Made by a program: the position numbers and the translations under genes
Shown here: one piece after another, positions 10,913-26,491 of the stretch
Numbering within the stretch: position 1 is the first letter of the stretch
How the letters are laid out: every line of letters begins with the position of its first letter
The notes under the pieces: model-generated
The model's input: only the letters and a program-made list of their open reading frames with translations
Databases searched by the model: none
What the model was told of the DNA's origin: nothing
Virus record (IMG/VR): IMGVR_UViG_3300043331_001349
Location: 1-26,491 of that record
DNA: 26,491 nt
Source: a virus
Direction: 5' to 3' (one strand)

Positions 10913-11121
10913 GACTCCTCCGCTCCCATCGGCTTGTGCTTCGCGAGCAGCTTCGCGGCAGCCATGTACGGTTCATCGATCGGATCGTCGACTTCCGGCT
11001 CGACCGGGAACGTCGGCGGCGCCGACTCGAACTCGACTTGCAGCAACGCGCCAGAGGCATCGAAGGATGCTCTCCGTACGCCGCGCGCCTTCAGCGCATC
11101 CAGGGTTTCTTCCAACGTCAT
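10909..11121 (-). CDS. Small acidic protein between terminase and portal
   Basis: 70 residues. ATG 11121 overlaps the terminase stop (ATGA); a TTG further up at 11148 would add nine residues but breaks the start-stop pattern. The sequence opens with an amphipathic helix (MTLEETLDALKARGVRRASF), continues as a strand (GALLQVEFESAPP) and has a Pro/Glu/Asp-rich middle (VEPEVDDPIDEPYMAAAKLL). It ends in an ATGA overlap with the portal gene. I do not recognise a named family, though small acidic proteins are common in phages between terminase and portal. No enzymatic motif is visible. Confidence 0.75.
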   Translation of the reverse strand: MTLEETLDALKARGVRRASFDASGALLQVEFESAPPTFPVEPEVDDPIDEPYMAAAKLLAKHKPMGAEES

Positions 11122-12656
11122 GACCAAGCCTTTGCTGCGTTCTGCCAAGGGTCATCACCAGGCGGAGTGAAGTCGGGATCGTCCTCTTCCTCCGTCGGTT
11201 TCACGTAGTCGCGCGCGATGGGCTCTTCCGGCGCGTTCATCATGCAGAGCCCGACGGCGGTGAAGAAGTCGCAGTGCCTTCCGTCGCCGCTGGTAGGGAG
11301 ATGAACCATCGGGCGCGCGGAGCTGTTGACCAGCTTCTTTTTCACGCGCACGAGATCTTCACGGAGCTCGCGCATCGGCGGGAGCTCGAGTGCGTTGTCC
11401 TCGAGCGCGGTGCGGATGGCCATCGCCATCGTCCACTTCAGGTCCGCGTCGATGTTGTGGATGAGCAGGTTGAGCCCGATGTCGTCGGCGAGCGCTTGCA
11501 ACGCCTCCGCCGAGAATTGGTCCGTGTTCACATCGCTGATGTGGTAGCGGTCGCAGATAGCCTTGATCTCGGCGAGGATGGTCCGAGGATCCATCCCAAC
11601 GACTTCCTTGCCGCGACGAGCTGCACGCCACTGGCGCGCGAGCACGACGGAGAACTTCCCGACCTCGACCTGGCCGACGATGGTGAACGTCCAAGCCGAT
11701 GCGCGCGCGCCTGGATCCATCGACGCGACGTAGAAAACGCCCGGCTCTGGCTTCCGCTCGAGGTCGCCGCCTTTCCGGATGGCGCGGTCGAGCGCGAGCG
11801 ACGAGAAGAGCGCGTCCTCGGGGTCATCGAACTCTGCGAGGACGTCCGTGCGGTACTCCTGCGGTCGCGTGCGCGCGGCTTCCTCGCAGGCTTCTGGCGT
11901 CCAGATTGTCGGGTTCAGATCTGCCCCCGGCGCACGCACGATGACGACGTCAGGACCGGGCTTGCCGAAACGCTCCTGCACCAAGTCGTACACGGGCCCG
12001 AACGCGGCGTAGGGCGAGCCGATGAGCAGGATCTGCCCGCCAGGAAGGATGCGCAGGCCGACGGCGCGAATGGCTTCATCGAGGTTTTTCACGCCGTCCT
12101 CGACGCCGACCATCCTCGGTGCCTCGTCGAAGATGCACGTCGCAATCCAGCGCGACGTGAGCGTCACGCCGTACTTCGCGAGCGCAGTTACGACGATCTC
12201 GATGCCGCGCCCCGAGGGGTGACGGAGCCACACGCTCTCGCCCGTCGGCTCCCCCATCATCAGCGACTTGAGGAAGGGACTCGCGCTAAGCGTTCCGACG
12301 AGGTGCGTGTACGTCTGGCGCGCGGCGTCCTTCGTGGGCGCCAAAATCGGGATGCGCACCTCGTCGCCGGGCTTCAACCGAGAGACGTCGACGGTCTGCG
12401 AGGCAATCACCGCGCGGTCCGCCGCGAGAATCGACTTCGCACAGCGGATCGCAGCGATGAGCCCGAAGATGCGCGGCGGCGTTCCGCCCTGAGGCGGGCG
12501 CTTGTACCCGAACGCCTTCTGAATCTCCGGACGCTTCCAGAGTCTGTCCCCGATGGGTCGCCCGTCGATCGCGCGCGTGATGGCGATCTGCAGCGGCGAC
12601 GCCGTCGTGATGCCGAAACCCTGCGGGTGACGGAAGAGGAGCTCAGTCGTGAGCAA
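11118..12656 (-). CDS. terL: Terminase large subunit
   Basis: 512 residues; the motor that cuts and packages phage DNA. The start is TTG 12656, inside a seven-codon ORF that begins at the preceding stop (12666). ATPase part: a degenerate Walker A at 68-75 (AAIRCAKS), Walker B CIFDEAP at 174-180, and coupling motif LIGSP at 211-215. Nuclease part (RNase H-like): three acidic sites at D314 (SMDPG), D379 (NTDQF) and D463 (HCDFFTAVG). N-terminal ITTASPLQIAITRAIDG is a typical opening for this type. The Walker A lacks the usual GKS/T glycines and retains only K74-S75. The C-terminal tail (TEEEDDPDFTPPGDDPW) is acidic and may contact the portal. Linked by ATGA to the small gene before portal. Confidence 0.93.
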   Translation of the reverse strand: MLTTELLFRHPQGFGITTASPLQIAITRAIDGRPIGDRLWKRPEIQKAFGYKRPPQGGTPPRIFGLIAAIRCAKSILAADRAVIASQTVDVSRLKPGDEVRIPILAPTKDAARQTYTHLVGTLSASPFLKSLMMGEPTGESVWLRHPSGRGIEIVVTALAKYGVTLTSRWIATCIFDEAPRMVGVEDGVKNLDEAIRAVGLRILPGGQILLIGSPYAAFGPVYDLVQERFGKPGPDVVIVRAPGADLNPTIWTPEACEEAARTRPQEYRTDVLAEFDDPEDALFSSLALDRAIRKGGDLERKPEPGVFYVASMDPGARASAWTFTIVGQVEVGKFSVVLARQWRAARRGKEVVGMDPRTILAEIKAICDRYHISDVNTDQFSAEALQALADDIGLNLLIHNIDADLKWTMAMAIRTALEDNALELPPMRELREDLVRVKKKLVNSSARPMVHLPTSGDGRHCDFFTAVGLCMMNAPEEPIARDYVKPTEEEDDPDFTPPGDDPWQNAAKAWS

Positions 12657-13393: not shown

Positions 13394-13547
13394 GGTCGCG
13401 CTCCTTGTTCACTTCGACCAAGGCGTCGACGAGCATCGCGTGGCGGTACTCGTGGAATGACGGACCAAAGACAGGCCCACGCTCCTCGATTACCGTCGTT
13501 CCGTCCGCGTAGCGCAGCACGGCCATGACGAATACGGGCGTGTTCAC
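13371..13547 (-). CDS. Small hypothetical protein downstream of the Tad2-like gene
   Basis: 58 residues from GTG 13547, overlapping the Tad2-like stop as GTGA, with GGAGG about five bases upstream (GGGAGGAAGCGTG). That is a strong site and decides the start over a much longer upstream frame. The sequence opens with a hydrophobic strand pair (TPVFVMAVLRYADGTTVIEE), then GPSFHEYRHAMLVDALVEV and a Lys/Arg/Glu tail. No known motif. Tight coupling to the Tad2-like gene suggests co-expression, not necessarily shared function. Confidence 0.7.
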   Translation of the reverse strand: MNTPVFVMAVLRYADGTTVIEERGPVFGPSFHEYRHAMLVDALVEVNKERDREQSRSR

Positions 13548-13843
13548 GCTTCCTCCCAATCGCACGAGAGCAAGTCCGTTTGCGACGCGAGCCACGGGAC
13601 GAACGCGCCATCCGCCGTGAAGAACATCAGATACGGCAGGAACCGGCAGACAGTCCCTTGAGGGATGCCTGTCGCCTCCGCCGTGTTCGCGTTGATCGGA
13701 ATGCCATCCGGGTAGCCCTTCTGGAGCACGACGAACATCCCCTTCCCATTCCACCCATTCCACCCAGCACGCCGGAGCTTTGCCCCTTTGCGCAGCCGAG
13801 CGAGTGCCGTTTCGAAACCGAAGAGTGGTTCGTTGGTGTTCAT
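13544..13843 (-). CDS. tad2: DUF2829 / Tad2-like protein (candidate anti-Thoeris sponge)
   Basis: 99 residues from ATG 13843, overlapping the metalloprotease stop (ATGA). The full DUF2829 pattern is present: FGFETALARLRKGAKLRRAG at 8-27, GKGMFVVLQKGY at 33-44, NANTAEATGIPQGTVCRF at 51-68, PYLMFFTADGAFVPW at 70-84 and the hallmark LASQTDLLSCDW at 85-96. Known members of this family (Tad2, Thoeris anti-defence 2) form tetramers that bind the cyclic ADP-ribose signal of the host Thoeris system and so stop host NAD depletion. That function here is inferred from family. One oddity is WNGWNG at 28-33 where the family usually has one WNG. It sits among small accessory genes between the terminase subunits, a typical cargo position. 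Confidence 0.85.
   Translation of the reverse strand: MNTNEPLFGFETALARLRKGAKLRRAGWNGWNGKGMFVVLQKGYPDGIPINANTAEATGIPQGTVCRFLPYLMFFTADGAFVPWLASQTDLLSCDWEEA
13745..13765 (+). repeat. 9-bp tandem duplication inside the Tad2-like gene
   Basis: CCCATTCCA is repeated head to tail at 13745-13753 and 13754-13762, followed by a further CCC. On the coding strand this gives TGGAATGGG twice and encodes WNG-WNG. The extra copy is in frame and adds three residues near the conserved Gly-Lys-Gly, a likely product of replication slippage. Confidence 0.85.
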
Positions 13844-14256
13844 TGCATCACCTCGTGGTCGGCGTCCGTGCAAGAGAGCGCGCCGTGCGCGAGCTCGTGG
13901 GTGAGCACCTCGGCGAGCAGCAGGCGACCGTGCTGCGGGTCGCGCGCGCGGCGGTTGATCTCGCCGACGTAGATGGTGAGGTAGCGCACGCCCGCGGCTG
14001 TCGAGCACTTGCCCAGTACCGGTGAGCGGCTCACGAAGTCGATGAGCAGAATCGGCGGCGTCGACGCGCCTGGGTTCTTGAACTGGTGTTCGAGCAGCGC
14101 ATCCTCGACGCCCATCAGATACTCGCCAGTTGGTGAGTGCTGCCCGCCGAGCGCAGCACACCCGTAGAAGAGTGTGATGGTAACGAAGGCTACCAGCGCC
14201 GTGCGGATGCACCTGCACCAGAGGTTGAACTCGCCGCACTTCGCGCACGGGTTCAT
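13840..14256 (-). CDS. Membrane-anchored HExxH zinc metalloprotease-like protein
   Basis: 138 residues from ATG 14256, overlapping the previous stop (ATGA). The first 18 residues have four cysteines (CAKC at 4-7, CRC at 14-16), like a small zinc knuckle. A membrane segment follows (TALVAFVTITLFYGCAALGG, 19-38) with a lipobox-like FYGC ending at C33, so a lipoprotein is possible. The C-terminal part carries THELAHGALSC, with the zincin motif HELAH at 120-124 and a further His at 134 in DADHEVM as a possible third ligand. The catalytic Glu is E121. This would be an exported or membrane-facing protease or a cell-wall-related enzyme; the substrate is unknown. It is immediately upstream of the Tad2-like gene. 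Confidence 0.72.
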   Translation of the reverse strand: MNPCAKCGEFNLWCRCIRTALVAFVTITLFYGCAALGGQHSPTGEYLMGVEDALLEHQFKNPGASTPPILLIDFVSRSPVLGKCSTAAGVRYLTIYVGEINRRARDPQHGRLLLAEVLTHELAHGALSCTDADHEVMQ

Positions 14257-18395: not shown

Positions 18396-19285
18396 CAGAA
18401 CAGCTCCTGCGTGACCGCCGGGAACAGCGACTGCTGCCTGTTCGCGTTCTCGAGGTTGCGTGTCGCCTGCTCCCAGTACGAGCGCTTGAGCTCGCAGATG
18501 ACGGCGCGGCGGCCCATCTTCAGCGCGCACACGCCAGTGCTCCCGATGCCGCCGAACGGGTCGAGCACGTTGTCACCCGGATTCGACCAGAGCTCGACGC
18601 ATCGCTCAATCACCTGCGTTTGCAGCGGGCAGAGGTGCGCCTCATCTTCGTCTTCGCGCGCGCTCTTGCCCTGCAGTGTTCGCGACTGATCGATATCCAT
18701 CCAGACGGGTGACGCCACCTGCTGCCACTTATGCACCGGGTACTCTTCCTCGGTGTGCGAGACCGGCTCGGGATTCTCGCCTGGCTTCCTGAACGCGACG
18801 AGGTAGTCGGCGATGCCGCACCGACTCATCGTCGAGTCCTTCTTCAGCTGCTTCCAGAGCAGCCCGAGCGCCTTCGTGCGCTGCATCGCCGTGACTGGGT
18901 CTTTCCAGATGGCCGTCTCGGAGTGGAAGATCCAACCGCCGTCCACCATCGCGCGCACCACTTCACCGCGGAAGTCGTGCAGCCCAATGAAGCCGTCGCG
19001 CGTCTTCGACGACGGGAGGATCATGCAGTGGATGGCCGCGATGCGCCCCGGGATGGTGACGCGCTTGAGCTCGGCCACCCAGAATGCGAATTGCTCGAAG
19101 AACTCCGCGTGCGAGCGGCAGTTTCCGAAGTCGCGGTCACTTGCCGAGTACGTGAATAGCGACGCGAACGGGATGCTCGTCACCGTGAGGTGTACCGAGC
19201 TCGACGGCATCGACCGCATAAGCTCTACGCAGTCACCCTGCGCCGCCGCCCACCCGTTGCCCTCCTTGTAGTCGAGGACCTTCAC
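18395..19285 (-). CDS. DNA methyltransferase (beta-class amino-methyltransferase)
   Basis: 296 residues from GTG 19285, overlapping the previous stop (GTGA). Motif order is catalytic first: SIPF at 37-40 (the D/N/S-P-P-Y/F motif with Ile in second place), HLCPLQ at 217-222, then the S-adenosylmethionine motif LDPFGGIGSTG at 241-251. This order is typical of beta-class N6-adenine or N4-cytosine methylases. The S-x-P-F form favours N4-cytosine but does not prove it. Phages carry such orphan methylases to mask their DNA from host restriction or to regulate packaging. No partner nuclease is adjacent. The SNF2-like helicase lies three genes upstream. Confidence 0.85.
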   Translation of the reverse strand: MKVLDYKEGNGWAAAQGDCVELMRSMPSSSVHLTVTSIPFASLFTYSASDRDFGNCRSHAEFFEQFAFWVAELKRVTIPGRIAAIHCMILPSSKTRDGFIGLHDFRGEVVRAMVDGGWIFHSETAIWKDPVTAMQRTKALGLLWKQLKKDSTMSRCGIADYLVAFRKPGENPEPVSHTEEEYPVHKWQQVASPVWMDIDQSRTLQGKSAREDEDEAHLCPLQTQVIERCVELWSNPGDNVLDPFGGIGSTGVCALKMGRRAVICELKRSYWEQATRNLENANRQQSLFPAVTQELF

Positions 19286-19641
19286 GGCGTCACCACCTTC
19301 AGATTCTCAGCCTCGGCCCTACGCATGCAGTCGCGCGTGCCGACGCTCTCGCTGTCCGGGAAAGCTGCAACCGTCACGTCGGCGCCATCCTTCGCGAAGG
19401 CGCGCGCGACTTTGACCATCACGCCGTTGCGCTGCATCCCGGCAGCGCGACCAGCTCCGAGCCACGGAGCCTGACCAACCAACGCCGTGATGCTGTGTGT
19501 GTTCGCCCACGTGCGCGCCTCGGCATCGACGCCACGAGCGCACCCGACGATGACGATGTCTGGCTTGAGCTTGTCGAGGTAGCTGAACACCTCGCCTGCG
19601 CGTGTCGGCCTGCGGGTGCCAGTAACTAGAACGACTTTCAT
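19282..19641 (-). CDS. SLOG-domain (DUF2493-like) nucleotide-binding protein
   Basis: 119 residues from ATG 19641, overlapping the stop of a 15-codon ORF (ATGA), with AAGGAG about 11 bases upstream. It has the hallmark start VVLVTGTRRPTRAG (3-16) and the Rossmann-like IVIVGCARGVDAEARTWA (29-46), with the G-x-A-R-G-x-D phosphate-binding turn, then AAFPDSESVGTRDCMRRAE (92-110). SLOG proteins of this type bind nucleotides or nucleotide-derived signals. In phages they are common but their substrate is not known. Sits between the exonuclease and the methyltransferase. Confidence 0.75.
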   Translation of the reverse strand: MKVVLVTGTRRPTRAGEVFSYLDKLKPDIVIVGCARGVDAEARTWANTHSITALVGQAPWLGAGRAAGMQRNGVMVKVARAFAKDGADVTVAAFPDSESVGTRDCMRRAEAENLKVVTP

Positions 19642-26284: not shown

Positions 26285-26462
26285 TGCGGAACCTCGACTT
26301 GGTCCCGGCGAATTCGAGTTCGTCATTCGGCACGAGCCACAGGAAACCGTCCACCGATCTGATCTGGTAGACGCGCGCGTTCGCCGCGCGAACGATGGTT
26401 CCGCGATAGCGGCGACCGCTCTCGCTCACCCAGGATACCCGACACTCGGATTGCTTCGTCAT
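26274..26462 (-). CDS. Small basic hypothetical protein
   Basis: 62 residues from ATG 26462, with GGAGG ten to fourteen bases upstream and ATGA overlap with the upstream ORF. It has a strand-rich pattern (CRVSWVSESGRRYRGTIVRA, then YQIRSVDGFLWLVPNDELEF) and a basic end, as in small SH3-like phage proteins. No named family is recognised. Confidence 0.6.
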   Translation of the reverse strand: MTKQSECRVSWVSESGRRYRGTIVRAANARVYQIRSVDGFLWLVPNDELEFAGTKSRFRSAA

Positions 26463-26491
26463 GCTGCTGTCCTCCGTTCCAGTTCGCCCAA
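26459..26491 (-). CDS. 3' end of a gene running in from the right edge
   Basis: The last 33 bases read LGELERRTAA then TGA, and this stop overlaps the next ATG (ATGA), as in other gene pairs here. Only ten codons are visible, so no product can be named. It is included because the overlap pattern argues that it is coding. Confidence 0.4.
   Translation of the reverse strand: MGELERRTAA

Follow-up and report, generated by a model that had tools for sequence, protein, structure and literature searches.

A private 9-bp tandem duplication in the predicted pocket loop of a Tad2-like phage protein

A tailed phage encodes a Tad2-like protein in which a perfect 9-bp tandem repeat has doubled a Trp-Asn-Gly (WNG) motif. 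The gene lies in a 26.5-kb virus fragment with a G+C content of 63% (referred to below as the window, the whole stretch of DNA that was analysed). What is new here is an insertion that is genuine, private and well placed; what is known is the Tad2-like family, of which the protein is otherwise an ordinary member. The composite reading of a Tad2-family sponge of a tailed phage, with a pocket loop lengthened by replication slippage and with function probably retained, is judged, taken as a whole, to have a good chance of being right.

Membership of the product (MNTNEPLFGFETALARLRKGAKLRRAGWNGWNGKGMFVVLQKGYPDGIPINANTAEATGIPQGTVCRFLPYLMFFTADGAFVPWLASQTDLLSCDWEEA) in the Tad2-like family is clear from its sequence, its profile match and its predicted fold. 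The sequence-only reading had claimed a complete DUF2829 pattern, including LASQTDLL and PYLMFFTADG blocks, and had proposed an HMM search against DUF2829/Tad2. That search was run and bears the claim out: the Pfam PF11195 (Tad2-like) profile matches the product at 74.9 bits, far over the cut-off of 25 (E 7e-21), with an alignment spanning profile positions 3-72 of 73, and the fold agrees. The family motifs RxGWNGxxM, PYL, W-x-x-S-x-x-D-x-L and DW are all present, with WNG doubled; the product reads GWNGWNGKGM, PYLMFFTADG and WLASQTDLL at the corresponding places. The PHROG matches (1048 and 872) carry no annotated function, NCBIfam and PADLOC searches gave no match, and every noteworthy PDB sequence match is to HgmTad2/AcrIIA7, SptTad2, ModTad2 or SPO1 Tad2. 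The gene is in frame with no stop within, and its ATGA overlap with the upstream gene makes it probable that the two are translated together. Where not saturated, dN/dS against relatives is 0.06-0.28 over 66 codons, so that the Tad2-like lineage is under constraint; this ratio gives no date for the insertion, and the constraint that it shows does not extend to the insertion itself. The coordinates of the gene and its features are collected in Table 1.

Table 1. Features of the Tad2-like locus and its surroundings, in window coordinates
Feature	Position	Strand	Remarks
Tad2-like (PF11195, formerly DUF2829) protein gene	13544..13843	minus	99 aa; ATG start; stop codon inside coordinates
Perfect period-9 tandem run	13745..13766 (22 bp)	minus	TGGAATGGG x2 at 13745-13762 plus flanking bases; duplicated WNG, residues 28-33
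beta1-beta2 loop AGWNGWNGKGM, residues 26-36	13736..13768	minus	AlphaFold secondary structure
Segment from beta2 to PYL, with YPDGIPINANTAEATGIPQGTV	13637..13735	minus	33 residues between GKGM and PYL; subfamily hallmark
Likely ribosome-binding site GAGGTG	13849..13854	minus	5 nt ahead of the ATG, within the last part of the upstream gene; consensus match only
Upstream gene	13840..14256	minus	138 aa; overlaps the start of the Tad2-like gene as ATGA
Likely large terminase	11118-12656	minus	Divergent; weak PHROG match

The two perfect copies of TGGAATGGG that encode WNGWNG form the sole perfect period-9 tandem duplication of at least 18 bp in the whole window; an order-3 Markov model of the window predicts 0.025 period-9 runs of at least 20 bp. 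The origin of WNGWNG in a 9-bp tandem repeat, already noticed from the letters of the DNA, is confirmed, and the repeat is found again in a second contig, IMGVR_UViG_3300036858_000045. This contig and the window agree at every position in the 8,997 bp surrounding the gene, WNGWNG included, and are mismatched at 2 sites in another 7,675 bp. At positions 26440-26491 the window carries a 52-bp stretch that is present as two tandem copies in the second contig; because the window ends there, its assembly probably broke at the repeat. Near-identity combined with the 2 mismatches and the difference in copy number of the 52-bp repeat identifies the second contig as a separate assembly of the same virus. 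The two contigs may stem from related samples, and thus their agreement is no evidence that the insertion has spread. Short tandem repeats are prone to mis-assembly, but an assembly or sequencing artefact is highly improbable here and was rejected, since WNGWNG appears in both contigs despite their differences elsewhere, and the 22-bp run is far below read length.

Judged by the sequences searched, the doubled WNG is private to this virus. A second WNG occurs in none of 89 relatives from viral contigs. The distance between the conserved Arg and GWNG is one residue in 84 of these relatives and two in the other 5, and the Arg, Gly, Trp, Asn and Gly of the RxGWNG motif are invariant in a 56-row alignment. 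Pattern scans covered 2.9 million viral contigs and 84,980 species genomes. A loose scan for WNGWNG in the viral contigs returned at least 120 stretches; among the matches listed, Tad2 is encoded only in this virus. A tighter pattern, consisting of WNGWNG followed by any residue, an RRN codon (G, N, K, D, E, R or S) and Met, and therefore blind to a degenerate copy or to a doubled motif with other following residues, was found over all viral contigs in this virus only. The same pattern gave 14 matches in the 84,980 genomes, none of them Tad2-like: these are short open frames or WNG repeats, with HMM scores of at most 10 bits that come from the motif itself. The existence of a clade of double-WNG Tad2 proteins was considered and rejected, no other such protein having been found in the scans of viral contigs and genomes. 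Synonymous sites between the two copies of the repeat are too few to date the duplication.

The AlphaFold model of the product, a single chain built with 56 window and locus sequences, has a pLDDT of 92.5, and its top rows in Foldseek and VIA-align are all Tad2 (Z 10.6-11.8, 72-88 aligned residues, rmsd 1.7-4.0 Å); the next row is at 6.4. Weaker structural matches, at Z 6.4 or below, are to the phage 812 neck protein and to mitoribosomal proteins. In the model, strand beta1 comprises residues 23-25 and strand beta2 residues 37-41, and there is a short turn at residues 31-33. A relative without the insert (L147, 73% identical) is predicted to have the same order of strands and helices, with a beta1-beta2 loop of 8 residues versus 11 here (AlphaFold models in both cases); model confidence is lower near the loop in both (means of 86 and 85 for residues 21-30). 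In these models the longer loop takes up the extra residues and the predicted core is unchanged.

What gives this position its significance is the location of the ligand in solved Tad2 proteins. A review describes a gcADPR pocket shared between protomers: one contributes strand beta4 together with loops beta1-beta2 and beta3-beta4, another contributes helix alpha3 together with loops beta1-beta2 and beta4-alpha3 (PMC12043709). From the order of elements (the review's strand numbers being those of solved Tad2), we infer that the WNG loop is this pocket-forming beta1-beta2 loop. The pocket uses that loop of both protomers, and so the extra WNG would be part of the pocket-forming loop in each protomer, giving four copies if the protein is a tetramer. 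The sequence-only reading had put the duplicated WNG next to the conserved GKGM segment; its association with a functional part of the protein holds, but the insert is placed by the model inside the loop itself and does not merely adjoin it.

Comparison with known systems brings out how far the protein follows the family and where it departs from it. HgmTad2/AcrIIA7 (PDB 8kbi-8kbm, 8wjc) is the best PDB sequence match (E 6e-10; 5e-20 with a profile), has the fold predicted here (Z 11.6, rmsd 2.5 Å over 83 residues) and likewise carries WLASQTD near its C-terminus; however, it has one WNG, and 45 residues separate its GKGM from the next core strand versus 33 here. The top structural match (Z 11.8) is ModTad2 of a Myroides prophage (8v3e, 9eib), with one WNG and a 28-residue spacer in contrast to the doubled WNG and 33 residues here; it binds His-ADPR of type II Thoeris (PDB entry title; PMC13299392). 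The founding anti-Thoeris member, SPO1 phage Tad2 (8sme, 8smf, 8smg, 8wje), has the fold seen here (Z 10.6-11.7) at about 30% identity, but lacks the duplicated WNG, its sequence match being shorter by the insert; it binds 1''-3' and 1''-2' gcADPR (PDB entry titles) and does not bind 3'3'-cGAMP (PMC11722364). The nearest named phage proteins are DUF2829 records without assigned function, from Brevibacillus phages Jimmer1 and Abouo (72% identity), Listeria phage A511 (gp64, 52%) and Bacillus phage G (gp59, 56%). These identities span about residues 29-97; matches that start only near the second WNG are as expected if the proteins are single-copy.

The spacer between GKGM and PYL varies across the family, from 28 residues in ModTad2 and 33 here to 39 in SptTad2 and 45 in HgmTad2; its 33-residue form is shared by 54 of the 89 relatives. 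Sequence similar to the segment YPDGIPINANTAEATGIPQGT occurs in 51 of the 89 and, within the matched stretch, in the Brevibacillus, Listeria and Bacillus phage proteins. A YPxGIPxNxNTAxATGxPxGT segment after beta2 is highly conserved in this subfamily, whose members come from phages of several hosts. A long insertion between beta2 and beta5 is reported to let HgmTad2 and SptTad2 hold cyclic dinucleotides as well; in HgmTad2 this site is apart from the gcADPR pocket (PMC12043709). For the YPxGIPxNxNTAxATG subfamily the literature yielded no assay and no stated ligand. Since the ligand is gcADPR, His-ADPR or a cyclic dinucleotide depending on the Tad2 relative, and since that of this subfamily is unstated, 'anti-Thoeris' is one option for this protein and not a finding.

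The source virus is a tailed phage by its SU10-like adaptor and terminase genes; the window also holds genes for an SU10-like portal (sub-threshold), a DnaB-like helicase, a DNA methylase, a 3'-5' exoribonuclease-like protein and a SNF2-type helicase. The Tad2-like gene is situated in a same-strand run of small genes, with the small terminase gene to one side of it and the probable gene of the large terminase to the other. For the large terminase, the viral contigs yielded no relative beyond the one on the same virus's second contig, and 50,697 phage records yielded a single protein, at 25% identity; judged by this enzyme, the phage belongs to a little-known lineage without a close relative in the collections searched. 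The Tad2-like gene, in turn, has DNA matches of up to 82% identity across 168 bp in genes of other phages, whose compared DNA shows no further match to the window, and this suggests that the gene travels horizontally. The product of the upstream gene, for which Pfam, PHROG and NCBIfam searches gave no match, has an N-terminal hydrophobic segment that closes with FYGC, carries an LTHELAHG (HELAH) motif, and is possibly a phage lipoprotein zinc peptidase. Elsewhere in the window, a 119-aa product (19282-19641, minus strand) matches the YAcAr (YspA, cpYpsA-related SLOG) family below threshold, scoring 25.5 bits where the cut-off is 28.2. The part of ThsA that binds its signal is itself a SLOG domain, and, with a Tad2-like gene in the same phage, a signal-related role for this product is conceivable.

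Tad2 sponges are built of V-shaped dimers paired into a tetramer, and a sponge mechanism is, by analogy with these relatives, likely for the protein described here. The product would most likely assemble as such a tetramer and tightly bind a nucleotide-type immune signal, so that the host effector would not be switched on. Replication slippage within GGGTGGAATGGG would have generated the in-frame 9-bp duplication, lengthening the pocket-forming beta1-beta2 loop by Trp-Asn-Gly. As the fold tolerates the insert and the gene is still intact, the protein is probably still functional. The insertion may nevertheless be very recent, and the protein may have been damaged by it.

What the insertion does to such a sponge is best approached through three readings. 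That it is neutral, with the protein binding its relatives' ligand and the extra WNG doing no more than lengthen a tolerant loop, is quite possible: the modelled fold is unchanged, and the 5 relatives with one extra residue right before GWNG indicate that small changes of length are tolerated there, although a length otherwise fixed in the remaining 84 and the invariance of W, N and G bespeak a constrained loop. The product may, functionally, be a plain family member and nothing more. That the insertion weakens or abolishes binding is unlikely. Such a loss of function would do no harm where the defence is missing, or would be selected for by hosts that guard their nucleotide pool, and it would follow from a change in a pocket-loop motif that is invariant elsewhere. 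The Panoptes defence, in which hosts guard the nucleotide pool against Acb2, offers a precedent, since phages lose sponge function under it; of four Tad2 proteins assayed against Panoptes, SptTad2 had a slight effect (PMC12657218). Yet the frame, the start and all conserved motifs of the gene are intact, with no other sign of decay. That the insertion alters ligand choice or affinity, as an adaptation to another immune signal, is more doubtful still. On this account the insert would sit in the pocket loop of both protomers (the role of the loop from PMC12043709, its placement from the model), in a family already varied in its ligands (gcADPR, His-ADPR, cyclic dinucleotides). The insertion also brings in a further aromatic side chain, and nucleotides are commonly held by aromatic stacking. 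Set against this is its occurrence in a single virus, which gives no hint that it has been retained over time or has arisen convergently. A change of oligomer contacts, which the sequence-only reading had proposed alongside a change of ligand choice, is conceivable. It is correspondingly improbable that the doubled WNG confers a ligand or an affinity absent from single-WNG Tad2 proteins, that is, a one-step change of specificity by slippage.

Tad2 proteins are a phage means of blunting signal-based immunity, and the signal held varies from member to member. A 9-bp duplication that arose naturally, is private to one virus and falls in the predicted pocket loop makes a clean test case, with the same protein less three residues as its control, and would reveal whether simple slippage is enough to retune a sponge.
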